From contig FMBT01000292.1 in NCBI GenBank assembly GCA_900095095.1, forward strand, positions 1-64,000: a stretch of DNA of 64,000 bases, given 5' to 3'. Shown piece by piece: positions 3,265-53,211 of the stretch. The stretch comes from Fragilariopsis cylindrus CCMP1102 (lineage: Eukaryota; Bacillariophyta; Bacillariophyceae; Bacillariales; Bacillariaceae). The position numbers were made by a program, and so were the translations under genes. Under the pieces are notes generated by a model. It was not told the DNA's origin and did no database searches. It saw only the letters and a program-made list of their open reading frames with translations. How positions within the stretch are numbered: position 1 is the first letter of the stretch; every line of letters starts with the position of its first letter.

Positions 3265-4242
3265 TCACAGTTGAATGGCTTCTCTAGTTCTTATTTGTTA
3301 AGACTTGAGGTTATTGTAATTTAGACTTCTTTCGAGATCGTTAATTCAATAATTACAATTAAATATAATTGGATCTCCGGTCCTTTTGTCGTTCAGATGA
3401 ACTAAAAAGAAAGTTGATCAGCACGTTTATAGGATAAACCGTGCGACTGTTAATCTTGTACGTTTCACAGACAATCGATGATTGGTGAAACAGGATTAGA
3501 ATAGTCTTACTCTTCGGTCTTGTAAGATTCTATTAAAGCTGGAAGGGTTGATACTCTTGACCCTTATATTGAAAGACTACTCACGGTTGTTCTACCAGGA
3601 TATCTAACCCCTTCTTGTCAGCGAAACTTCCCTAGAAGAATGGCGTAACTTTCTGTAGATATATCTATAGTAACGTCGTACGATACTAACGATGATGTCC
3701 AAACGCAAAAGTTGTTATTAACACACTTGTTTATTTAGTCTATGGTTATTACAATTTCTCAACAATAAAAGACAGCAATTGTTCATTTCTCGTGATTGAG
3801 GTAATTCTGCTCTTTTCTTCGTATTTTAGTATTGCGGTTTCCAGTAACCCTGTATACAACTTTCTGTTCCTAACTCACTTCGCCTTGATACATATATATC
3901 GTATTAGCGGTTCAAAGGGGACATCGACATCTACTTCGACTTCCATATGTATAACACTCTTTTTGATCGTGTTCTATATATTCGGACACTCTTCCTAATC
4001 GTGTTCCGGTTTGTATAAATATACCTAAGCACTTCTCTTATTTGCGCTCGGTTCCAATTGCTTCGACAACGGCTTCGACAAGGTCACTTCAACTCAAACG
4101 GTGCGAGTTTGGCTTTTAGCTAACTTTCGGTTCTCTTTTATCTCAATAATGCATACACGTGCATTTCTCCTCACTAATCCACTCGCGCTTGTATTTCTAC
4201 TCCGCGGGGCTTATGTACGACATATGACTCCTACGCTCGAGT
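3265..4242 (-). other. 5' LTR body and leader of the left-edge element
   Basis: This non-coding stretch lies between the outer LTR end and the gag-like start. It must hold the remainder of the 5' LTR and the untranslated leader. Possible inner LTR ends (TAACA on the minus strand) occur near 3295, 3448 and 3713, and I cannot choose among them because the second LTR lies outside the window. No convincing tRNA-complementary primer site was seen. Confidence 0.4.
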
Positions 4243-4260
4243 ACTATGTATAATTTAACA

Positions 4261-4338
4261 GGGAGAAACTCCCCTACAAAAATTACACCCCAAAAAGTGG
4301 CACCATTAATGGTGCCATAATTGGAATTCTGTTAATGG
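4261..4338. repeat. Two-hairpin repeat module, copy 1
   Basis: Two hairpins flank the conserved string TACACCCCAAAAA. Hairpin 1 is GGGAG-AAA-CTCCC (4261-4273). Hairpin 2 is a perfect 20-bp palindrome (4298-4317). A diverged copy with the same order lies at 39297-39376. The copies agree in the spacer (TACACCCCAAAAA) and downstream (GAATYCTGTTAA) but differ inside the hairpin arms while still pairing. The left LTR element ends exactly at 4260, so it probably inserted into this older repeat. Confidence 0.6.
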
Positions 4339-8894: not shown

Positions 8895-11800
8895 ATGCCC
8901 TATCACCCGCACGACACTGGATGGATCAGAACGATCTATTCATCCATTTGTCTAGGATGGTTTTTACTCTCTACCGGTTTACTACCCAGATTTACATGCT
9001 ACTCGCTATACAACAATGTTTGGATCACATATTGCAAAATCATTGCATTTATGTGTGAAGAAATTGGCAATGCTGTTATAACCTTAGGTGAAACAATCAT
9101 GGAGATCGATTCCATTGTATTCAACAAAATCAACTATATCAACCCAATTTACAACGTGTTTCAACGATTTGAGCACATGCTATCTCGACTTAATATTTTT
9201 ACTCATCCAGTCATTGGCATGCGCCCAAAATCGATCTCCAGAAAACACAACTCTAAGAACAACAAGACCTCTTCAGGAAGCCATCTACATGTCTTCTTTG
9301 CACGCAAGCGCAGACGTAAGAGGCACTCTGTTATCTCAGGGCCGATTCCACATTCGGCGAATGGTAACAGTCGAACCAAGGATCGAACCAATACTGGATC
9401 CAGTACCCAGTCTCGATCCGAGCACCAAACCAAGGTCCCTCGTATCCCTTCGGATACGTTCGTGTCCGCGTCCACCATCTATCCTATAGATGACCCATCA
9501 TGTCAAGATACCTCGTGGTACGATGCCATCTCTCCCTACTGGACTGGTGGTATGATTTGGGACGGTGCCTATGTCCTTAATCACCAAGTTGTCTCTGTTA
9601 CAACTGATCCTATCTTTGTTTCTGATTTACTTCCGGCATTTGAATTGTCTGCTACAATTCAAACACCGAAAGCAAGGAGTGGGGGTAAGCATGTCGGCCC
9701 ACGGACCACCATTGCTATTGATAGCGGATCTAGTATTCACATCTTTAAAGATGCCTTCCTTCTGGCTGACATCCAAGCTGATGAAAACAGTTCTATCTCT
9801 GTACGGACTACAGATTCGAAGTTCCAAATCAAGGATATTGGACGTCTATGCGATGACCTTGACACCCTGCCTCTCCCATCGGATGGCTACTATTTCTATC
9901 CGAATGGAGTAGCCAACTTGCTATCGCTAGCTATGCTTACTGATACCAAGCGAGTGGTTATGGACAGCGCCATTGACAATGCAATATACGTATTCAATGA
10001 TGATGGTTCATATGTAAGATTTGGTAAGACATCCAATGGGATGTACTGTATCGACATCACGACCGATGACGACCACCATATCGTCATGGCACATCAAACT
10101 GTAAAAGGGGAGAGTGCACACTTTTCTGCAATCGACTGTAGAAGAGCTGCAAAGGTCAGGGATCTCCAAGAAGCACTAGCATGCCCTAGTGACTTTGATC
10201 TGGCTAACGCAATTGAACATAATGTTATTGGCAACAGCCCTTTCACAAGGAGGGATGTACGTATTGCCAAACAGATATTTGGACCTGACGTCCCAGCAAT
10301 GAAAGGAAAGACTGTCAAGAACAAGAGCATTATGCCAAGAGAGGATGACGTAACAGACATCCCATCTTTCATCATGAAAGAATACTCCAACATCCACTTA
10401 GCAATTGATATCATGCATATCAACGGGATCAAGTTTCTTATATCACACTCCAAACACATTGGATTGATACAAACATATTGTGTTAGAAAGAACAATCGCG
10501 ATGCCATACTGGCATGCATCCTGAAGATAATACAAACATACAAAAGTAGGAGTGTGTTTAAGGTCGTGACAATTGAAGCGGATGGTGCGTTTGAATGCAT
10601 CAAACATGAACTACAAGACAAACCATACAACATCACACTATCAACATGTGATGCTGACAGGCACGTCGAGACTGTTGAAAGACAAATCAGATTCCTAAAA
10701 GAAAGGATCAGAGCAGTAAGACTGATGATGCCGTACAAGAAGATTCCAAAACGATTTACTGTCGAGATGGTACTCCGAGTTACAATGCTAATCAACTCAC
10801 TACCTAAGCAGAATGGCATCCATTCCATATTATCTCCAAGGGAAATAGTAACAGGAAAGAAGTTTAGATGCCCCACTGTCAAGGTAGGACAGTATGTCCA
10901 AGGGCATACTGGGGGAACTAATAGCACTGATGAGGAAAGATCTATCGATGCTCTATACATCGGTCGCGCTGACAATGGCAGTGGTCATGTTGTGTTTAAG
11001 CTAAGCACTAAGCAACCCGTTTCCGTCAATAGGGTTACAATCATTCCAACCACCGAAGCTCTGATCAATACTGTCAATGAGATTGCAGAACAAGAGAAGC
11101 AACCGGAAGGAATTGAATTTGCTGACATCAATGGAAGAGTTACATTAGACGACTTTGCTGCTAATGTGATCAATGATGATGACAGTAATGCCTCCGATGT
11201 TGATTTCAAAATGGATGAAGAATATCGAGAGGAGCTTAAAAAAGAACTAAAGCTGGAAGCAAAAGACAAGACAGTTGATGAATCGGATCCTGACTCAAAA
11301 GGATTCGGCGGTGATGAACCTGATTCACAAATCGACTTCTTTCAGAATCCAATACAGCAACACAACAGGGACACTCTCAATGAAAACGAAGATGCACCTA
11401 TTATCCTTGACAGTCGCACCCGATCTGGCATGAATCTCGCTAACTCAACATCAAAGCAGGAGTGTGGGAAGGATAAGAAGAGGAAGAAAAGAACCATCTT
11501 TGAAAATGATACTAATTTGATTGAAGATGATCTTGAAGACGATGATATGATGGAACCCACCATAACATCCAACGATGACATTATTACTAACGATACATCT
11601 GAAGAAGAAGATGAACCATCTGCTCCGCGCGAGCTTGATTCGGACCTGGGTTCATATTGGAACCTAGCACACTCGAAGCAAGCGTGCGTCCTTAGCACGA
11701 TCGCCTCATACAGTCATGTAGAGGCATCGAAATCAACTCCACAGTATGGTTTCAATAGAGGGTTAAAGGAATTTGGCGCAATGGGATATGAAGCAACTAT

Positions 11801-13454
11801 GAAGGAACTTGATGACAACCTCCTAGGAATGGGAGCAGTCAAAATGTTGCGACCATCGGAAACAAGCAGTTCAATACGGTTTGAGGCTCTAAACTATCTT
11901 ATGTTCTTGAAAAGAAAAAGATGTGGAAAGATCAAAGCAAGGGGATGTGCAGATGGTAGACCCCAACGTGAATACATATCGAAAGATGAATCCAGTTCGC
12001 CAACGGTATCTATATACGCCCTAATGACATCATGTTTAATGGATGCCATTGAAGGCAGGAAAGTCGCAACCTGTGATATACCAGGTGCTTTCCTGCAGGC
12101 TGATTACCCAGCTGATAAGGACTGTTACCTCAAGTTCGAAGGAGCAATGGTGACAATGATATGTGCCATTGATCCTAAATACAAGCAAAATATAGTGGAG
12201 AGGAATGGAAAAGAATATTTATATGCCAAACTGACCAAGGCTGTGTATGGTACACTCCTTGGAGCCATCCTATTCTACAAGAAGCTCAGTAAACAATTGA
12301 TTGAGTGGGGGTATGAACCAAACTGCTATGATAGATGTACCTTCAACAAAATGATTGAAGGGAACCAATGCACTATCCAATTTCATGTGGACGATTTGAA
12401 AATATCTCACATGAAGCAGTCCGTAATAGACTCAGTACTTGATGACGTAAACAAAGAATTTGGTACCGTCAAGAAGCCATTATCAGCTACCACTGGTGAC
12501 ATACATGATTATCTGGGTTTAACCATCGACTATAGTGAAAAGAACAAAGTGAAGTTCACTATGTATGACTATCTAGAAGACATACTGGCTGAAATGCCAA
12601 GTGACATGAATGGAACAGCTCCCACACCAGCGAGTAATAATCTATTTGATGTGGACGATGATTCGGAACTATTGAATGAAAAAGAAGCAGATTTCTTCCA
12701 CCGATCTACAGCTCGGTTGTTGTTTGCTGCCAAGAGGGCAAGACCAGATCTCCAAGTGGCTGTCGCTTACCTCTGCACCCGAGTCAAAGCTCCTACACGC
12801 TCTGACTATCGGAAATTAACCAGAGTGATGAGGTATCTAAGGTTAACTATATCCATCCCTCTAGTGTTAGGTTGGGATGGAAGTGGGAAGCTGCTATGGT
12901 CGATAGACGCATCGTTTGCAATACACAAGGATATGAGAAGCCATACTGGTGCCGTGTTGACAATGGGCCAGGGTGCTTTAATGTCAATGTCCCTGAAACA
13001 AAAGATCAACACAAAGAGCTCCACTGAAGCAGAATTGGTTGGAGTTGATGACGCTATGAATTTTATTGAATGGATTCAATTATTCGTTGGGGAGCAACTC
13101 AAGTCAATTAATCCTGATTCAATCCTTAATAAGATTGGTTCAGATGTTGTCATTCAGCAGGACAACACAAGCACAATACAGCTCGAAAACAATGGACAAG
13201 CATCTAGTACCAAGAGAACTAGACACATCAATATCCGATACTTCTATGTGACAAGCAAGATCAAAGAAGGAAGCATTCGTGTGATATATCATCCCACAAA
13301 GGAAATGGTATCAGATTATTTGACTAAGCCATTGCAAGGGAGCCTGTTCAGAACTCATCGAAACTCCCTTATGGGCCACGATGAAGATTCAATAGCGCGT
13401 TATGATCAAGAGTATAACGACGCTAAGGCAGCCGCTGCCAAGGACCTTTCATAA
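8895..13454 (+). CDS. Copia pol polyprotein (protease, integrase, RT, RNase H)
   Basis: 1519 residues. Order of domains: an N-terminal extension of about 270 residues with one hydrophobic stretch (near residues 10-35); aspartic protease with IAIDSGSSIHIF (near 276); integrase core with the D...D...E pattern (AIDIMHI, EADGAF and DADRHVETVERQ, about 500-600); reverse transcriptase with CDIPGAFLQADYP and the HVDDLKISH form of the YVDD box; RNase H with IDASFAIHKD, STEAELVGVDDA and HINIRYFYV. Integrase before RT is diagnostic of Copia. The long N-terminal extension ahead of the protease is unusual for simple Copia elements. Confidence 0.93.
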   Translation: MPYHPHDTGWIRTIYSSICLGWFLLSTGLLPRFTCYSLYNNVWITYCKIIAFMCEEIGNAVITLGETIMEIDSIVFNKINYINPIYNVFQRFEHMLSRLNIFTHPVIGMRPKSISRKHNSKNNKTSSGSHLHVFFARKRRRKRHSVISGPIPHSANGNSRTKDRTNTGSSTQSRSEHQTKVPRIPSDTFVSASTIYPIDDPSCQDTSWYDAISPYWTGGMIWDGAYVLNHQVVSVTTDPIFVSDLLPAFELSATIQTPKARSGGKHVGPRTTIAIDSGSSIHIFKDAFLLADIQADENSSISVRTTDSKFQIKDIGRLCDDLDTLPLPSDGYYFYPNGVANLLSLAMLTDTKRVVMDSAIDNAIYVFNDDGSYVRFGKTSNGMYCIDITTDDDHHIVMAHQTVKGESAHFSAIDCRRAAKVRDLQEALACPSDFDLANAIEHNVIGNSPFTRRDVRIAKQIFGPDVPAMKGKTVKNKSIMPREDDVTDIPSFIMKEYSNIHLAIDIMHINGIKFLISHSKHIGLIQTYCVRKNNRDAILACILKIIQTYKSRSVFKVVTIEADGAFECIKHELQDKPYNITLSTCDADRHVETVERQIRFLKERIRAVRLMMPYKKIPKRFTVEMVLRVTMLINSLPKQNGIHSILSPREIVTGKKFRCPTVKVGQYVQGHTGGTNSTDEERSIDALYIGRADNGSGHVVFKLSTKQPVSVNRVTIIPTTEALINTVNEIAEQEKQPEGIEFADINGRVTLDDFAANVINDDDSNASDVDFKMDEEYREELKKELKLEAKDKTVDESDPDSKGFGGDEPDSQIDFFQNPIQQHNRDTLNENEDAPIILDSRTRSGMNLANSTSKQECGKDKKRKKRTIFENDTNLIEDDLEDDDMMEPTITSNDDIITNDTSEEEDEPSAPRELDSDLGSYWNLAHSKQACVLSTIASYSHVEASKSTPQYGFNRGLKEFGAMGYEATMKELDDNLLGMGAVKMLRPSETSSSIRFEALNYLMFLKRKRCGKIKARGCADGRPQREYISKDESSSPTVSIYALMTSCLMDAIEGRKVATCDIPGAFLQADYPADKDCYLKFEGAMVTMICAIDPKYKQNIVERNGKEYLYAKLTKAVYGTLLGAILFYKKLSKQLIEWGYEPNCYDRCTFNKMIEGNQCTIQFHVDDLKISHMKQSVIDSVLDDVNKEFGTVKKPLSATTGDIHDYLGLTIDYSEKNKVKFTMYDYLEDILAEMPSDMNGTAPTPASNNLFDVDDDSELLNEKEADFFHRSTARLLFAAKRARPDLQVAVAYLCTRVKAPTRSDYRKLTRVMRYLRLTISIPLVLGWDGSGKLLWSIDASFAIHKDMRSHTGAVLTMGQGALMSMSLKQKINTKSSTEAELVGVDDAMNFIEWIQLFVGEQLKSINPDSILNKIGSDVVIQQDNTSTIQLENNGQASSTKRTRHINIRYFYVTSKIKEGSIRVIYHPTKEMVSDYLTKPLQGSLFRTHRNSLMGHDEDSIARYDQEYNDAKAAAAKDLS

Positions 13455-19541: not shown

Positions 19542-22001
19542 TCACCATTCCCAATCTTCTTCGGTGAATGAGAAGAAAACCTGCTGATCACGTTCTAACC
19601 ACGATCTGGAAGTTGACGGAACGTTACAAATAGAATTAATTGATTTCACCATTTGAGCAGGACCACAAGCTAAAACGCCTATTTCAACCGTGCTATCGGT
19701 TTTCGCGAGAGCATTGACTTTTAATACCTTCTGTGCAATAGAATCAAATTCAATAGCAAAGTTAGGACGGAGACCAACATTCCCAATAATCATTGATTGT
19801 AATATTTCATGTTCGGTTTTGGCCCCTCCGTCTTCTATTTCTTCTTCTTCATTTTCATAGCTGCTGCATTTCGATTGATGTTCCGTCATCTCAAGAAATG
19901 AAACGGTGGCGTCGATATTTTCGCCCGTAGCTTTGAACTTCTGAACGTAGTAATCCACAAGAGGACGCACAATTACGATAACAAGACCAATCCAAATTAT
20001 CACAAACGAACACACCATGCAAAGCTCAACGAGGGATACCTTGTCTTGGACAACAGAACTGTATTTCTCATGTTGAAACGTCTTAGTAGTAAAGGCAAAG
20101 GCGATCAATGCTAGAACCATCGAGAAGCACATGACCATTGCGTTGAATGCTCCCTGTATGCCTGGTTCGTTCATTCGAAAGACACGAGATCGCGATGGTT
20201 TCTGTTCTAGCTTGTCTACTTGTTTTAATGGAGTCACGGATCGTAGAATGTATTCTACCCGATCGAAATTATTGAGTTCCAATACTTCTGATTTAAGGAG
20301 ACACCCATCATTATTCCCCGACTCTGGCATACTAAGGGTGATCCAAACCTTTACTTCGAAGTGCTTATAACGAAGTTGCGCTTCAGCAAATTCCGACGAG
20401 AAGATACCAAACTCTTCGATTGTACGGACAACCCAGAAGAGAGTTACTGGCATTGTGTTAGTCTGACACATTTCTAATGCTAGACTGATCATTGGAGTGA
20501 TGCCAATACCACCACCAATTAAGACTGCCCCGTGCTTGTTCTGAAGTTGATTGTGGACGTCATTGGCTCCATAGAAACCGTCCAATCGAACATGGAGTGT
20601 ACCATCATCTTTCTTTGCAGCTGCCTCAATAACTTTTTTCGTCCAAGAACCGGAGTCTTTCAGATGAAAGAACACCTTGTTGCCGTCAACACTTGGCGCT
20701 GATGTAAGCGAGAAGGGATGCCACTCTAAGAATGATACTTCCGGTACGTTCAAAAAGATATAATCGCCCGCTTCATACGTTACATCATGTCTAATTTCAA
20801 ACGAAATTTCTACTACAGTACTACTCAGCATCCTTGTTTTGGCTGGGGCAGTTCTGAGATAGGATACGAGAGCCATGAGCTTGTCGACGGCATAGACTGC
20901 AATTCCGGGAATCAGATAGATGATTGCACCCTTATAGTGAAGACAAATAAACAAAAACACAAAGATGAACAAGTGATGTGTGTAATAAAACCATTCGAAC
21001 TTATTTCGCCGGATCCAAGGTGTAGAAAATACAGTCATGATCCCTATGAACAAGAGTGTAAGGAAGCCATAGATGTTCACTCGGAGTTGCCTTGCCTGCG
21101 CTTCGTCACAATCATTCCTGGAACAATACCATGGCACCATATTTTGTTGGATCATCTCTCCCTCAAGATCGTAACTGGGGTTACCATCGCCATGGATCCA
21201 GATGAAAAGGTACTGAATACTGTGAATGACAATGATGAGTACGGTGTAGTAGCCAACCCATCGATGGTACTTGACTGCCCGCTCCCACGAAACTCCCACG
21301 GCCTCTAGAAGTACAGATTTTTTACCAATAGGTAGTAATAGATACCATCCGAGATTTAAGATGGCAATCACACCTAAAGTCTTGGCCCAAACTTCGCAGG
21401 CCTGCCAAGAGAACGGATCGATGGGTTCTCTACTAGCATCATCATCTTCATCCACCAGAAAAGTTATCTTTCTTGAACCTCGTGGTAAAGAACGCCGGAC
21501 CCGTACAAACATTGTACCAACGTTAAGGATCAAGAAAGCTACAATACCGAGCAATTCACCCATTGATACGCGATGAGGTAAGCCCACTCGGGTCAAGAAG
21601 GACGGAAATGCGAATGTTCGTCGAATGATTGACCCTGCAATACGTTGTGGTCGCTGGCCGTGATGGATAGTAGCCGGAAGACTTAATGGGATCAACAGAG
21701 CGACCGAAACTAGAAGAGCCGATATAATATACGGAACTATAAAGAAGTATACTCGCATGAGCACTTTTGCACTATCAAAATAGGACTGGAAAGGTACAGC
21801 TGGATTAGAAAACCAATCTATCGCATTATCGTAGACAGATGGTTCTCCTTCTCGAAACCAGTGACTCGTTTCGTACATCTTGATCACAGATGGAAACAAG
21901 GCCAGTAGAAAGGCTAGCGAGAAGAAGAACTTTCGCAGGGCATATTTTACAAGGCTTGAATTCTCGTTCTGACGAGGAGCGACAATTTTTCTTTTCATCA
22001 T
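19542..22001 (-). CDS. Ferric reductase / NADPH-oxidase family transmembrane protein
   Basis: Single exon, 819 residues. It moves electrons from NAD(P)H through FAD and two hemes across a membrane, most likely reducing extracellular Fe(III) for uptake. Membrane segments lie near residues 25-40, 83-110, 146-166, 205-223, 250-270, 308-326 and 340-356. Heme-ligand histidine pairs are H246/H260 and H342 or H343/H355. The FAD-binding motif is HPFSLTSAP (428-436), the NAD(P)H motif GGGIGITPM (496-504), and a late LACGPAQ lies near residue 785. Two extra membrane segments interrupt the NAD(P)H domain (about 625-700), as in plant FRO-type reductases. The next gene upstream, divergent, is an FEA1-like iron protein. 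A superoxide-producing oxidase is the main alternative. Confidence 0.88.
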   Translation of the reverse strand: MMKRKIVAPRQNENSSLVKYALRKFFFSLAFLLALFPSVIKMYETSHWFREGEPSVYDNAIDWFSNPAVPFQSYFDSAKVLMRVYFFIVPYIISALLVSVALLIPLSLPATIHHGQRPQRIAGSIIRRTFAFPSFLTRVGLPHRVSMGELLGIVAFLILNVGTMFVRVRRSLPRGSRKITFLVDEDDDASREPIDPFSWQACEVWAKTLGVIAILNLGWYLLLPIGKKSVLLEAVGVSWERAVKYHRWVGYYTVLIIVIHSIQYLFIWIHGDGNPSYDLEGEMIQQNMVPWYCSRNDCDEAQARQLRVNIYGFLTLLFIGIMTVFSTPWIRRNKFEWFYYTHHLFIFVFLFICLHYKGAIIYLIPGIAVYAVDKLMALVSYLRTAPAKTRMLSSTVVEISFEIRHDVTYEAGDYIFLNVPEVSFLEWHPFSLTSAPSVDGNKVFFHLKDSGSWTKKVIEAAAKKDDGTLHVRLDGFYGANDVHNQLQNKHGAVLIGGGIGITPMISLALEMCQTNTMPVTLFWVVRTIEEFGIFSSEFAEAQLRYKHFEVKVWITLSMPESGNNDGCLLKSEVLELNNFDRVEYILRSVTPLKQVDKLEQKPSRSRVFRMNEPGIQGAFNAMVMCFSMVLALIAFAFTTKTFQHEKYSSVVQDKVSLVELCMVCSFVIIWIGLVIVIVRPLVDYYVQKFKATGENIDATVSFLEMTEHQSKCSSYENEEEEIEDGGAKTEHEILQSMIIGNVGLRPNFAIEFDSIAQKVLKVNALAKTDSTVEIGVLACGPAQMVKSINSICNVPSTSRSWLERDQQVFFSFTEEDWEW

Positions 22002-37048: not shown

Positions 37049-38023
37049 ATGATGAAAGCTACATCGATTTCCATGACACCAGCAGCAGTGCGGAAACGAA
37101 AAAGTCGATTGAATTTGGATGTAAAACGACGTGAGACAGAATATAATAGAAATCGAAACCAGAATCCGAATCGCATTCCAATTATTCCCAAGACACAAGC
37201 ACAGCTGAAACAAAAAAGTCGTTTGAATTTGGATGTAAAACGACGAGAGACAGAATATAATAGAGATCGAAATCGGAAACAGAATCATTCAAATCAAATG
37301 GATTCCACAGTACCATACAATTTAAAGGTATTAGTAGGGGGTGTGGTTATTATGTCTTTGATGCCAAACATACAAAGGAAGAAGAAGAAGAAGAAGGAAG
37401 CTACACCAAAGAAGACAAAGAAGAGGTCGAGTAATAATAATAGAGATCGATTGATTATTAGTGGTAGGATGAAAATTAACCATCCGGATTTTAGAACAGG
37501 AAAATATAAAGATTGGCGCCAAGGCGATTTGGTTAATAACAACGGAGTACATGGTACATGCTCCATAACTTGGAAAGATGATGATGATCCTAATAACATA
37601 GACATAGTTGGTCTTGAATATATTGAATTTGATTTCAAATCTAGATTAAAATCTAAGATGTTGTGTAATAAATGCGGAAACCTAATTGATATTCATTTAC
37701 GTAGATGTTCCGCATGCGATAATCGTTGTAAAAATAGAGATCCCAAAGCAAATCGTCTTTCATTACAACTTTATGGTAATTCATCAACTGATACAGCTAT
37801 AGTGAATGATTTAATAACTATGAAAAAATATAAAAATAAATTTACCGCAGAACACGAAAAAGAAGCACGCATTCTAATTGAAGATTTATATTTTAATACA
37901 ACAACAGAATACCCAAATCAAAAACATATTGTATGGAATGATAATAAGACCGAAAAATTGGAACAGACAATTACACAAGGTGATATATATTTATATTCTT
38001 CTGACGGTAAAACTCGTTGTTAA
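37049..38023 (+). CDS. Orphan protein with duplicated N-terminal motif and Cys4 zinc motif
   Basis: 324 residues from an ATG (a second ATG follows directly). The 16-residue motif SRLNLDVKRRETEYNR occurs twice in the first 75 residues. A very basic stretch follows (KKKKKK, KKTKKR). CNKCGNLIDIHLRRCSACDNRC (about residues 211-232) is a probable zinc ribbon. No family is recognised. The next open frame (38017 onward) begins in another frame, overlaps the end by a few bases and lacks an ATG, so the two may be one gene joined by an unseen intron or broken by a frameshift. The leader-like repeat lies immediately upstream. Confidence 0.5.
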   Translation: MMKATSISMTPAAVRKRKSRLNLDVKRRETEYNRNRNQNPNRIPIIPKTQAQLKQKSRLNLDVKRRETEYNRDRNRKQNHSNQMDSTVPYNLKVLVGGVVIMSLMPNIQRKKKKKKEATPKKTKKRSSNNNRDRLIISGRMKINHPDFRTGKYKDWRQGDLVNNNGVHGTCSITWKDDDDPNNIDIVGLEYIEFDFKSRLKSKMLCNKCGNLIDIHLRRCSACDNRCKNRDPKANRLSLQLYGNSSTDTAIVNDLITMKKYKNKFTAEHEKEARILIEDLYFNTTTEYPNQKHIVWNDNKTEKLEQTITQGDIYLYSSDGKTRC

Positions 38024-38835
38024 GAGCAAGTGTGGATGTTTTTAATGCAAACGAAATCAATAATAATGATAGTATTCAATTACAAGCTACACCACCATCT
38101 GAAGGCTTGATAAAAAAAGTCTATCCTCACAACGTTAGTCTATTATTACTAATAAATAAATTAGATGTTATCAGTGAACAAGTTAAAAGAATATCTGCAG
38201 AGGCATGTGTTGTAGTTGCTGCTGCTGCTGCTACTATCAACAACAATGAAGATGGAGTATTTGTGTTGAAAGAAGGAAGAAATTCTACTATATATACCAA
38301 AACCAATTTATCAACCGATGTTGGACACAATAACTTCGAAGAAAAAGTCATTCCAATAAAAATAACAGAGATTAATTCTGAACAAAATGTTAAATTAGAT
38401 GAAATAATATCATTTATTGAATCACACAATATCATGGAAGTATTATCATCGAATTGTCAGGGTCCTGGTGATGTAAACGAAAATTCAATTATGTTTGGTG
38501 TGTGTTCTGGTCAGAAGCGACAAGAAGGTATAAGTAACAGATGTGGTGAATATTGTACCAATGATGGAATATTGATGACTAAGTTGATGAAGATGATTAA
38601 TGAATATATTCAACTAACGGAATTGGTACTCCAACACGAATTTCCTATCGTTTATAATAAACTTAAACGGTTGAAACAATTATTATCTCCACATCAGGTA
38701 TGGGATCAAAACAAATGGTCTATGAAATCTGAGATATTTTTCAACGGTTATATCTCAATTGGTCACCGCGCCAGTAGACGTCATACCAATTATAAGAATT
38801 CGCATTTGACTCATTTAACAGGATTCAGGTTATAA
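38017..38835 (+). CDS. Open frame continuing the orphan gene, no own start
   Basis: About 270 residues without an ATG near its beginning. It contains an Ala run (VVAAAAATINN), a helical segment (about residues 20-60) and, near the end, the conserved-looking PHQVWDQNKWSMKSEIFFNGYI. No family is recognised. I take it as the C-terminal part of the gene starting at 37049, either through a frame change or as a decayed gene. Confidence 0.35.
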   Translation: MLRASVDVFNANEINNNDSIQLQATPPSEGLIKKVYPHNVSLLLLINKLDVISEQVKRISAEACVVVAAAAATINNNEDGVFVLKEGRNSTIYTKTNLSTDVGHNNFEEKVIPIKITEINSEQNVKLDEIISFIESHNIMEVLSSNCQGPGDVNENSIMFGVCSGQKRQEGISNRCGEYCTNDGILMTKLMKMINEYIQLTELVLQHEFPIVYNKLKRLKQLLSPHQVWDQNKWSMKSEIFFNGYISIGHRASRRHTNYKNSHLTHLTGFRL

Positions 38836-39296
38836 GGAATTTTGCAGTATTTTGCGCGTGTTAAAAGCACGCGATAATTTCCATCTAAAACAAATAAAAA
38901 AAAGATGAAAGTCTTCAGAGGTGCAAATATATGTGATGTGACTGTCGAAATAAATTAAGATTCGACGCATTAGCAACTCGAACACAGGGCTGTTTTATGG
39001 ATCCGGTGGGGTGTCACCATCTCCACTATGACAGTAGATATTTGATTCGTACTGAGTCTTAAACATTTTGAGTATTTAAATTTTTTTAAAAATCGCGCAG
39101 GCATACTGAACGCGATACTTAGCGCTAACCGCGAATTTTCCCTTTTGGCTCTTCCGATTTATTATTACTGCCCCGTATTATGCTGTAGGTGCGGCCCATA
39201 CAAAGCTTTTTCCGCGTATTCTAAGTATATAAAAAGACACGTGCCCTTATTCGGAGACGCGCTGTGTCTCAATAGGGGGGTGTAAGTCCAATTTTT
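38836..39296. other. Spacer before the hairpin module
   Basis: No gene. AT-rich, with the inverted string GGGGTGTAA at 39277-39285, the reverse complement of the TTACACCCC part of the module that follows. Confidence 0.4.
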
Positions 39297-39376
39297 GGGG
39301 GAGATATGTCCCCCCGAAAAATACACCCCAAAAATTGGCGTCCCGTCGGGAGCCATAACCTGAATCCTGTTAACTA
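39297..39376. repeat. Two-hairpin repeat module, copy 2
   Basis: Hairpin 1 has six-base arms GGGGGA and TCCCCC (39297-39302 and 39309-39314). Hairpin 2 is GGCGTCCCGTCGGGAGCC (39337-39354) with one bulge. Between them is TACACCCCAAAAA, and afterwards CCATAA and GAATCCTGTTAA, as in copy 1 at 4261-4338. An alternative larger hairpin pairs CCAATTTTTGGGG (39288-39300) with CCCCAAAAATTGG (39326-39338). Confidence 0.6.
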
Positions 39377-39514
39377 CACGTAAATTTAAGGAAATTGGGA
39401 AAATGAAGTGCTTACGGGACAAACAATATTAATGGATCGCTATTCACAGAAAGTAGTAGTAATACAAGATAGTGAAAATGGTAAACAATTAATGGGTGGA
39501 TTAAATGCGTTTGC

Positions 39515-40721
39515 TCACGCCAACTTATCACCTAAATTCAATGATCCTCCCCAAACCCGATTGTGAAAAAGTGATACAGAAGTAAAAAAATATAATATAT
39601 AGTTGAAGTAGTTACTTATAACGAAGTGAAACCATCGATTAGAATTCTCGTGAACGTCTTCATAAAGAACTACTAGTACGTTCAAATTTAAGGTACCATT
39701 ACCACCATTATTAGCGCGAGCTTCATCGTGAGCATGTTGATAGAGAACTACTAGTTGCATAATGGCAATAGCATCATTTTCTGTTTGAACGTTGGCGATG
39801 GTATCATCATCAACATCATCATCATCGTGAACAAAAGGCATCATCTTGCACTTGACTTGGAGTAGAGTTACTAGTTGCTTAATGGCAGTATTAGTATTAT
39901 CTTCATAGATCGGAACTAATTGCGTTACTGCAATAGTATCATCGTTGCCGTGTTGCACTGATCCTGATTGTAGTAGATCTTCGGTCGTTTTTACTAAAGC
40001 TTTACTTAAAACAAAATAATACTCCTAATAAACTCATCTTTATACTTCGATTGACTAGTATCAGTATATTTCTCCCCATTGGCTTGTACGTTGATTTGAA
40101 TTTGATACATCAATCGAAACAATAATATCAAATCCCCATTCTTCCTCATCATACCATCTTGATTCATTACTTGTATCATTACCTGTACTTGTAGTAACAG
40201 TAATATTAGTTGGTCCATCACTTCATCTTTGTCTTGAACGACTTGATAGAGAAGTACGTGGCAATAGTATGTCCGTTGTCGTCGTGAATACCATCGTTAT
40301 CATCAAAGATTTCGATAACTTGATCTTGATCGTGATAGATCAATCGAAATAACGGTATCTCCTTATCGGTTGTAGTAGTAGAGTAACAGCATCGACCGTC
40401 AATGTAAAGATTATTATTATATTTACTATAATATTCTTCTTTATATTGTTGTATAATAGCAATAGTATCATCATTCTCATTCTAAACGATATCCTTTGCA
40501 ATGCAATTACGTATTAAATGATATGGTAGTATCATTTTGTAATTGATTTGATAAAGAATTACTAGTTGCATAATCATGTCAGTAGTTTTGTCGTTGTCGT
40601 TGCTGTTAACATCATTGTTATTGTCGTGAACGCGATACTTTCTACCTACGCGATACACTAATCGAAATAAGAATATCAATATCGATATTAAATCTCCATC
40701 TAAGTATAAATGTAAAAAAGA
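39515..40721 (-). pseudogene. Decayed repeat-protein gene (degenerate modules)
   Basis: On the minus strand, broken frames repeat two module types: QLVxLYQ preceded by an Ile/Ala-rich run (AIAIMQLVVLYQ, MIMQLVILYQ, AVTQLVPIYE, AIKQLVTLLQ) and LFRLxY (LILLFRLMYQ, IPLFRLIYH, FLFRLVYR). The DNA shows the same repetition, for example ACTACTAGTTGCATAATGGC and its near copies at about 39745, 39870 and 40560, and CAATCGAAAC/CAATCGAAAT at about 40110, 40340 and 40645. Frames are interrupted many times. I read it as the remains of a tandem-repeat protein; the family is unknown. Confidence 0.4.
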
Positions 40722-51558: not shown

Positions 51559-53211
51559 TTAATCTATTATGTTCAGTTCCTGACGACATTTTTTCCGGAT
51601 CTTTTCTTCTTCGTGATCTTGTGTACCGCCAAACGCTGCAAGAACAGACAGAAGTGGAGTATCTCGTTTAATGGATGATGGCAAAGACGACGATGACAGT
51701 GAGTATTTTACGGGATTTTTTCTTCTTAGTTGTCGAAAGTAATGCGAAATCTTTTCTCGGGCGGCATATCGTCCAACTTCGTCCCAGCTAGCCTCCTCTT
51801 TGTTAAACTTCAAAAAACGCCCACCGTACTCGACATGAATAAACGATACAATCCGTTCAGCGATAGCAGTCTTTGCAAACTTGGTTGCTTGTTCGTACTC
51901 TACTTGATATGTCTGTACCAAAGTACGATAATCACGGTTACCAGGGTGCTGTGTTATCTTTTTATGTTTTCCAAACAAGACATCGTTTTGCCCAACAGTG
52001 ATATTTTCTGCGCAGTCATCATCATCAGCTTCGACATTATTAATAATAATAATGGTGTTGCGAACCACTGGTAGATTTTGATTTTCCTTAAATTTTTGCA
52101 TCATCACCCACTCTTGGTGAAATTTCAAAGACACAAATTCATCTGATTGGATATAGTCATTGTTGACAGGAATGCCGTACGTCTGTAATTTAAATATAGC
52201 CTCATTGTGGTCTCCAAAATGAGATCTTAGGCGTGCGCGGTCGCATTTACTCAGAAAGTAAAGTTTTTGCATTGCTATCAGAGGTCTAGTGTTGTCGTCA
52301 TCATAGCAAATGTGGATGGCGTTAATCTTGTAAGGTATCGCTTTTCTTCGGGGGCAAATAATCGAAGCCACTGGAAATTTACAGTTTAATAGTCCAACCA
52401 TGTATAAAATCAGAACCATACCTTTCTTCTGAAATTCTTCGTCTTTGAGAAGCTTGCTAAAGATGTAGAACCAAACCTTACCAACCCTCCCTCCGCCTTC
52501 TCCTCTCTCTTTTAGACGATAGAGCATTGCTGGCCGAACTACAAATATGAACCTTCCTGCAGTATCACGAATAGGTAGCACTTGAAGCATTCCCGATTCC
52601 AAAATATTTATATCAGCTCGAGATAAGTCCGACAGCTCAACATCTCTGCCCATAACACCATCACCGTAACCGAATTTAGCTTTCTTTTCTTGAAAATGAT
52701 TGACCATCTTTCGAGCCGCTGATTTGGCATTAAATCGAACTGATCGTAGGAACATAAGAATTCTATCCTCGAAATAATCGGGATGTAACTCCATAACTTC
52801 CTTCATTGCTGCAGTTATTGCCGTATTCTTATCACAAGATAGTAGTTTTTTCATCTCGTCGTTGAATTCAGAGAATTTTTCCTGTAAATGTTCTGGTTCC
52901 TCGTTATCCTCCACTCGATCTAGTCCATGAACATCGAAGCTCACTTTGTCATGATCCATAATATTTAAACTTGCAATCTCGTTTGCTAATGCAGTATCAA
53001 CAATGTCTGCGTCGTCTTGTGTAATTGGAACTGTCACATTGCTCATCGCACCAGGCGCAATGAGTGGCTGGGAGATAAAATTGTCGTCATTAATGCCCCA
53101 CAATGATGATGATGATGATGATTGGGAGGAGTTGTCATCGTCGCTTTCGGTCCTGTGGTAAGCTACTCGATGGGGGGAAAGTGGTGATTCATGCTCCTCT
53201 GTATTATTCAT
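51559..53211 (-). CDS. CRAL-TRIO-like domain fused to DUF6824
   Basis: Single exon, 550 residues. Residues 1-60 are acidic and Ser-rich. Residues about 145-355 resemble a CRAL-TRIO lipid-binding region with its helical N-terminal part (ILMFLRSVRFNAKSAARKMV, then SDLSRADINILESGMLQVLP and RDTAGRFIFVVRPAML). Residues about 405-505 are DUF6824 (QNDVLFGKHKKITQHPGNRDYRTLV ... YAAREKISHYFRQL), a domain of unknown role expanded in diatoms. Normal DUF6824 starts NDVLLGRG; here the last residues are changed to FGKH. A lipid- or phosphoinositide-linked function is inferred from CRAL-TRIO. Confidence 0.75.
   Translation of the reverse strand: MNNTEEHESPLSPHRVAYHRTESDDDNSSQSSSSSSLWGINDDNFISQPLIAPGAMSNVTVPITQDDADIVDTALANEIASLNIMDHDKVSFDVHGLDRVEDNEEPEHLQEKFSEFNDEMKKLLSCDKNTAITAAMKEVMELHPDYFEDRILMFLRSVRFNAKSAARKMVNHFQEKKAKFGYGDGVMGRDVELSDLSRADINILESGMLQVLPIRDTAGRFIFVVRPAMLYRLKERGEGGGRVGKVWFYIFSKLLKDEEFQKKGMVLILYMVGLLNCKFPVASIICPRRKAIPYKINAIHICYDDDNTRPLIAMQKLYFLSKCDRARLRSHFGDHNEAIFKLQTYGIPVNNDYIQSDEFVSLKFHQEWVMMQKFKENQNLPVVRNTIIIINNVEADDDDCAENITVGQNDVLFGKHKKITQHPGNRDYRTLVQTYQVEYEQATKFAKTAIAERIVSFIHVEYGGRFLKFNKEEASWDEVGRYAAREKISHYFRQLRRKNPVKYSLSSSSLPSSIKRDTPLLSVLAAFGGTQDHEEEKIRKKCRQELNIID

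Follow-up and report, generated by a model that had tools for sequence, protein, structure and literature searches.

The window analysed here, a stretch of 64,000 nucleotides, carries two copies of a module that an earlier note had described as a pair of hairpins whose arms change in sequence and still keep pairing. Both copies, together with their common spacer TACACCCCAAAAA and the downstream GAATYCTGTTAA, are present where that note had placed them, at 4.3 and 39.3 kb. The two loci are homologous: TACACCCCAAAAA and GAATYCTGTTAA occur together at 7 places in the 68-Mb genome (a reversed control pattern gave 0), and 34 full-length copies of the surrounding element can be aligned. The 39.3 kb module forms the right end of a complete element at 38815-39373; the module is one end of a non-autonomous element (a MITE), and not a stand-alone RNA. 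The features of the two loci are as follows, CRD standing for the C-terminal cysteine-rich domain of the transposase.

38815..39373, + strand: complete non-autonomous piggyBac-like element (MITE), TTAA to TTAA, 551 bp plus two TTAA (inverted arms, 34 aligned copies, empty sites)
38815..38818, no strand: left TTAA target-site duplication (a single TTAA in the empty sites L060 and L061)
38819..38833, + strand: left terminal inverted repeat CAGGATTCAGGTTAT, the counterpart of the autonomous element's 3' end (inverted-arm and end comparison)
38855..38873, + strand: left subterminal palindrome CGCGTG-N7-CACGCG, of putative role (copy alignment)
39277..39329, + strand: upstream hairpin, comprising both helices analysed (outer and inner); most arm positions are constant, altered on one side only or without a partner (aligned ends)
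39336..39355, + strand: subterminal palindrome occupying bp 15-34 counted from the tip, a proposed binding site of a CRD dimer; imperfect, with a one-base bulge (aligned ends)
39355..39369, + strand: right terminal inverted repeat ATAACCTGAATCCTG, the counterpart of the autonomous element's 5' end; it begins with the final base of the palindrome (end comparison)
39370..39373, no strand: right TTAA target-site duplication (empty sites)
4200..4260, no strand: right end of an LTR-like repeat, as covered by a query that started at 4200
4261..4335, + strand: right-end remnant of the second copy, terminal 75 bp; left side cut by the LTR-like repeat, the rest absent from the window
4298..4317, + strand: perfect 20-bp palindrome TGGCACCATTAATGGTGCCA of the 4.3 kb copy (sequence read)
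4318..4331, + strand: right terminal 14 bp of the 4.3 kb copy (CAGAATTCCAATTA from the end inward), with TTAA at 4332-4335

The repeat that cuts the 4.3 kb copy was found at 40 places at least, the window's own included (the best 40 of 120 candidates were scored), and 12 same-strand pairs spaced by about 8.6 kb among the scored places suggest that it is an LTR. CAGAATTCCAATTA together with the TGGC that follows it had no further exact match in the genome. The flanks of the complete MITE (38215-38814 and 39370-39533) are themselves repeated sequence, and an ORF of the window (38017-38835) extends into its left end. Elsewhere in the window, a scan of 10 of the 22 ORFs of at least 230 aa identified a reverse transcriptase (RVT_2; 8895-13454), a ferric-reductase-like protein (19542-22001) and a DUF6824 protein (51559-53211).

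Searching the genome with the right part of the 39.3 kb copy yielded at least 42 matches (best 40 of 132 candidates scored). From 40 candidate intervals, 6 were removed as overlapping, duplicate or misjoined; the 34 MITEs aligned are skewed toward intact ends, with L042 and L053 among the loci without an interval, where an end is missing or changed. Members of the family are 508-595 bp long (one TTAA not counted) and possess TTAA and inverted repeats of 14-15 bp at both ends; in the window copy the inverted arms are perfect over 19 nt, TTAA included. TTAA flanks 34 of the 34 MITEs on the left and 33 on the right, in a set whose selection pattern itself included TTAA (with up to two mismatches), and the left and right 14-bp tips are identical in 26 of 34 copies (shuffled mean 14.6, largest 24). 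Two paralogous places (C78 and C72), 96-97% identical over about 760 bp, are devoid of the element and have one TTAA.

The palindrome of the left end (38855-38873) has alternative forms, ACGCGTGTTAATAACACGCGT and TTTTTACTAGTAAAAA, the latter seen in other MITE copies; in such a form it is absent from the terminal 110 nt of the 3' ends examined in autonomous elements. The MITEs look mosaic, with discrete alternative segments in varied combination, such as TATATAAAAAGACACGTGCC versus GAATAAGAAAGCACACGCC near 39225-39250. Many copies contain a TATA-like sequence upstream. By eye, tRNA-like A-box and B-box words can be found on the minus strand of the interior (window positions 38950-39050 and their equivalents), and many of the longer copies have a second B-box-like word on the plus strand, for instance GGGTTCAATCCC. 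A tRNA at this site was considered and rejected, as ARAGORN reported none in 32 loci or the window and Rfam none in the loci searched.

The genome holds 53 matches to PF13843. Five complete autonomous elements, 3.51-3.55 kb in length and each with an ORF of 819-822 aa, share their ends with the MITE: its right end corresponds to the autonomous 5' end, 575-600 bp ahead of the ATG, and its left end to the autonomous 3' end. In all five, 14 bp separate the palindrome from the tip, and about 540-560 bp lie between it and the ATG of the transposase downstream. The three proteins scanned (P0001-P0003) all exceed the PF13843 (DDE_Tnp_1_7) cut-off. By its transposase, its TTAA duplication and the terminal inverted repeats common to MITE and autonomous copies, the element is a DNA transposon of the piggyBac superfamily.

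Eight Cys/His residues are invariant among 9 aligned sequences within the C-terminal stretch of about 100 aa, which we accordingly predict to be a CRD. AlphaFold runs on the CRD and on the whole transposase reached pLDDT values of 42 and 27 and gave no usable model; comparison of the CRD or P0001 with solved structures by sequence returned no piggyBac match, and phmmer found none between P0001 and the piggyBat structure up to E=1. P0001 contains valine and serine runs at about 319-345 (VVVVVVSNRLL..SSSSSS) that may represent either an in-frame intron or an insert of low complexity. The genome's top PF13843 score belongs to a different piggyBac-like transposase, P0004 (889 aa; L081, C63:44500-50500), which matches the piggyBat structure (E 9.6e-5) and, weakly, the structures of T. 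ni piggyBac (E 0.0078); the terminal inverted repeats of the MITE family (up to 1 mismatch) were not found in the L081 piece examined. One autonomous 5' piece, L089 (C354:219770-220040), carries a telomere-like repeat, CCCTAACCCTAACC, and no tip. Beyond this genome, viral contigs scanned once with 6 short peptide patterns revealed no relatives, and 2 patterns run against prokaryote genomes produced 22 pattern matches, 0 of them confirmed.

The proposition that the arms change and yet pair holds for the downstream hairpin. Our census of this structure relied on a pattern that is anchored outside the palindrome, does not require pairing and fixes the length at 20 (reversed control 0); 67 matches were obtained, and removal of 3 unrelated ones left 64 family members, among which 25 different 20-mers occur. 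Watson-Crick pairing is present in 282 of the 320 cells of pairs 5-9, compared with a mean of 172 and a maximum of 214 when the 3' halves are shuffled; for the 25 distinct sequences the corresponding figures are 98 of 125 versus 63 (largest 83). Among the 64 members, pair 5 is G-C in 33, T-A in 25 and mismatched in 6 (T/C or T/T); pair 7 is C-G in 37, G-C in 16, T-A in 8 and mismatched in 3; and pair 8 is C-G in 36, A-T in 20, G-C in 5 and mismatched in 3. Further copies, to which the earlier note had looked for a loss of pairing, mostly retain paired downstream arms, the six mismatched at pair 5 being departures from the rule. The two window copies differ in this respect, since the one at 39.3 kb pairs only by way of a one-base bulge and the one at 4.3 kb is a perfect palindrome (20/20). 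No G-T cell occurs at pairs 1-9 on the strand read; A-C cells, which are G-T on the other strand, do occur. Some palindromes with asymmetric centres exist in both orientations (TCGCGGTGGCGA 5, TCGCCACCGCGA 3), as a symmetric reader would allow.

In 38 aligned ends (37 distinct), 94.9% of the cells of the downstream hairpin are paired, and both-sided change affects 4 of its 9 pairs. Over the whole structure, 61 cells show both-sided change versus 26 in shuffles, and 52 of these 61 lie in the downstream hairpin. Three of five whole-structure measures exceeded all 500 shuffles; the number of pairs with both-sided change (6 versus 6.1 shuffled) and that of further pair types (16 versus 15.8) showed no excess.

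For the upstream hairpin this behaviour, and with it the earlier claim, is not confirmed. In the 4.3 kb copy the LTR-like end at 4260 truncates the 5' arm of this hairpin, so that the GGGAG/CTCCC match of that copy is not a homologous pairing. Its outer helix shows no both-sided change in the 38 aligned ends (37 distinct). Of the 11 inner pairs, 4 are invariant, 3 change on one side, 2 differ solely by unpaired cells and one has a single both-sided cell, with 16 of 37 unpaired; the remaining pair, in which 15 of 37 are unpaired, is the only one with repeated both-sided change (AU 12, GC 8). With repeated both-sided change at one pair only, the two-hairpin reading is good for one hairpin.

These data bear on the suggestion that a structured RNA or a small-RNA hairpin is at hand, in which folding of the transcript would keep the arms paired. 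Pairing and covarying arms in most copies would fit such an RNA, as would the TATA-like sequence upstream in many MITEs. However, Rfam gave no match for the window and 7 loci at gathering scores, nor for 4 loci at E<=1; neither membership in a known RNA family nor covariation across the module was found, as the upstream hairpin hardly covaries. Moreover, the palindrome sits next to the transposon tip and well before the ATG in the five autonomous elements, its length is exactly 20 bp in 32 of 34 MITE copies, and its changes follow the CRD, a relationship that an RNA model does not predict. We therefore regard an RNA as highly unlikely, and the structured RNA of the earlier note finds no backing in these results.

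Our analysis of how the palindrome relates to the transposase started from 25 autonomous elements with 5' pieces and C-termini, for 21 of which the rest of the ORF, whole or partial, was at hand; the best 55 of 276 candidates of the transposase search were scored, so that copy numbers are lower bounds. Three elements have no 5' tip in the piece examined (C354, C567, C715), C788, whose transposase is 100% identical to P0001, was unmapped, and the near-identical C278 and C50 were removed, leaving 19; a non-redundant set of 16 further omits the diverged C59, C195 and C279. In the 16 elements, palindrome distance correlates with CRD distance (r=0.68, p 0.001, a permutation value that, like those below, is too small because the elements are related) and not with that of core residues 1-320 (r=-0.02). 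The terminal 14 bp, the tip, behave conversely, with r=0.74 to the core and r=0.08 to the CRD, and CRD and core (r=0.0004) as well as palindrome and tip (r=0.002) are mutually unlinked.

In windowed Mantel comparisons on the same set, the palindrome reaches at most |r|=0.17 with residues 1-680 and 0.55-0.66 with 681-800 (p 0.0005). The tip attains 0.64-0.84 with 40-aa windows in 41-320 and 441-680, is unlinked to 1-40 and 321-400, is weakly linked to 401-440, drops to 0.34 at 681-720 and shows no link to 721-800 (0.06-0.09). The linker, residues 681-733, goes with the palindrome (r=0.55) and weakly with the tip (0.24). When all 19 elements are used, the tip reaches 0.44-0.46 with CRD windows and the palindrome up to 0.21 with core windows (p down to 0.046); the contrast is blurred because the diverged group differs everywhere, and the dissociation of palindrome and tip is clean only without that group. 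Trees were also calculated with FastTree for the 19 elements. On that of the CRD, palindrome class requires 4 changes, the fewest that five classes allow, and tip class 7 (4.7% of shuffles as low or lower); on that of the core, 9 changes are needed for palindrome class (9% of shuffles as low, their mean being 10.7) and 3 for tip class. Collectively, and as a statistical finding, the palindrome has changed type along with the CRD on several occasions in this genome, and the core and the outer 14 bp have stayed together. Selection is the probable cause of this co-switching.

Mere linkage would provide a different explanation. Gap repair after excision can replace element interiors, and if recombination exchanged the middles of elements and kept both ends, palindrome and CRD would travel together. 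The mosaic make-up of the elements agrees with such a process, as do the weak ties of some non-coding stretches to the CRD (5' bp 91-150, r=0.26, p 0.002; 3' end 51-90, r=0.20, p 0.03). Yet the outermost 14 bp, which linkage would equally retain, go with the core and not with the palindrome, and bp 35-90, the region of the upstream hairpin that adjoins the palindrome, are weakly linked to the core (0.31-0.35) and unlinked to the CRD (0.06, p 0.2). With an order of tip, palindrome, core, CRD and tip along the element, simple linkage would not yield the observed pattern, and we judge this explanation extremely unlikely. The symmetry of the palindrome might also be a mutational artefact, in that template switching copies one arm onto the other without any selection. 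Palindromes in both orientations, the existence of hybrids and the visible mosaicism of the family speak for this process, and it would account for symmetry; it leaves unexplained, however, why palindrome class follows a CRD about 2.7 kb away rather than the intervening core. As a full explanation it is very unlikely, even though template switching may be a source of new palindromes.

Residue 754, five residues ahead of the third conserved cysteine, ranks first of 429 variable columns for palindrome class in the set of 16 (0.93 of the label entropy; the largest of 300 shuffled maxima was 0.80). In this set, proline goes with GCCAA palindromes in 7 of 7 elements, arginine with GCCCC in 4 of 5, methionine with TCG in 3 of 3 and lysine with TCTCA in 1 of 1; the exception, C303 with K754, contains an internal stop, and its palindrome is of reduced length. 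An expectation written down beforehand was right for residue 754 in all four further copies (C89 R, C476 R, C504 M, C54 K), the C504 pair being less sure because its palindrome lies about 8.5 kb from the matched transposase piece and an insertion between the two is assumed; for the residue before the second cysteine, the written expectation was right in 2 of 4 and wrong in the other two. One more element, C91:425800-428800, for which no expectation had been noted, combines K754 with a decayed TCTCC/GGGGA palindrome. Residue 754 is thus, as a correlation, the best single predictor of palindrome type, and we infer that it contacts the DNA. The code appears to be loose toward the palindrome centre, as TCGG and TCGC palindromes are paired with nearly identical CRDs in C44 and C52. 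With respect to the tip, residues 238, 594, 623 and 694 of the G000 transposases fully separate 6 AGG-tip from 7 CTG-tip elements (n=13), and they are candidate readers of the terminal inverted repeat in a ranking made without a shuffle control.

These observations lend themselves to a coherent model. The downstream hairpin is, very probably, a double-stranded DNA palindrome that belongs to the 5' end of a transposon of the piggyBac superfamily and to MITEs that share its ends, and whose symmetric half-sites switch together with the CRD. By analogy to T. ni piggyBac and piggyBat, a CRD dimer would occupy the 5' end at bp 15-34, and the transposase core would read the outer 14 bp of both ends. 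Because the two CRDs of a dimer are identical, an altered CRD specificity needs matching changes in both half-sites, and this looks like compensatory change in a hairpin. The transposon end bound by a protein that the earlier note had offered as its other option fits the downstream hairpin, with the binding itself being suggested by these analogies. MITEs carry several of the palindrome classes found on autonomous elements and may be substrates of the different transposases. Tentatively, and with rather less than even confidence, we propose in addition that new end specificities arise within one genome through exchange of a CRD-plus-palindrome module on a shared core, so that several orthogonal transposase-end pairs coexist, their choice set largely by residue 754 and perhaps driven by escape from the MITEs that parasitise each specificity.

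Membership in the piggyBac superfamily, contact between CRD and palindrome, and engineered transfer of a CRD together with its site to another core are already known, the last from the portion of PMC13405395 available to us. The earlier note's suggestion of an undescribed element is consequently right only in part; what is new is the natural and repeated co-switching of CRD and palindrome within one genome. The open-access literature, covered by titles and the beginnings of abstracts and with most subscription papers outside its scope, contained no description of natural co-switching of piggyBac CRDs and palindromes that we could find, and a prior description elsewhere is possible. If our reading is correct, nature has provided a set of CRDs with matching palindromes on one common core, through which the piggyBac recognition code becomes directly testable and orthogonal ends for genome engineering come into reach. 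A transposon could then change its specificity and keep its partner DNA, and a symmetric DNA-binding dimer could produce hairpin covariation, which therefore need not imply an RNA.

Strong diversity of CRDs among relatives of PiggyMac and piggyBac, across species and folds, has been reported (PMC8086355). The CRD varies likewise in the elements studied here, and joint switching with DNA sites is not described in the accessible part of that report.

In T. ni piggyBac, according to the excerpted text of PMC7351741, a CRD dimer sits at one end on bp 17-33, which form a palindromic repeat, and Y558, R567 and K569 are crucial for recognition. As far as these partial sources go, our element resembles the T. 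ni system (PDB 6X67/6X68; CRD, 5LME) in its TTAA target and in the position of the palindrome, bp 17-33 there and 15-34 here. K569 of the T. ni protein, with letters matched to the PDB entry, precedes Cys574 by five residues, just as residue 754 precedes the third cysteine, a correspondence that is suggestive only since the loop lengths differ. Whereas the available text places a 19-bp repeat at both ends of T. ni piggyBac, the palindrome of our element turned up solely at the 5' end, a half-site (up to 1 mismatch) being missing from the 3' piece of about 800 nt in 22 of 22 elements. The first cysteines are spaced C-x2-C there and C-x4-C, with a longer loop, here, and one specificity there stands against several in one genome here.

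With piggyBat from Myotis lucifugus, in which CRD palindromes are present on the left end only (PMC11707139, as available in part), our element shares the restriction of such palindromes to one end. CRDs behave as modules: when the piggyBat core was equipped with two piggyBac CRDs and a right end bearing the piggyBac palindrome, activity was restored only together with a second variant, each alone being inactive (PMC13405395, in the portion available). As far as the accessible text tells, piggyBat has three imperfect palindromes of one motif; the family described here has, unlike piggyBat, one palindrome with several alternative sequences.
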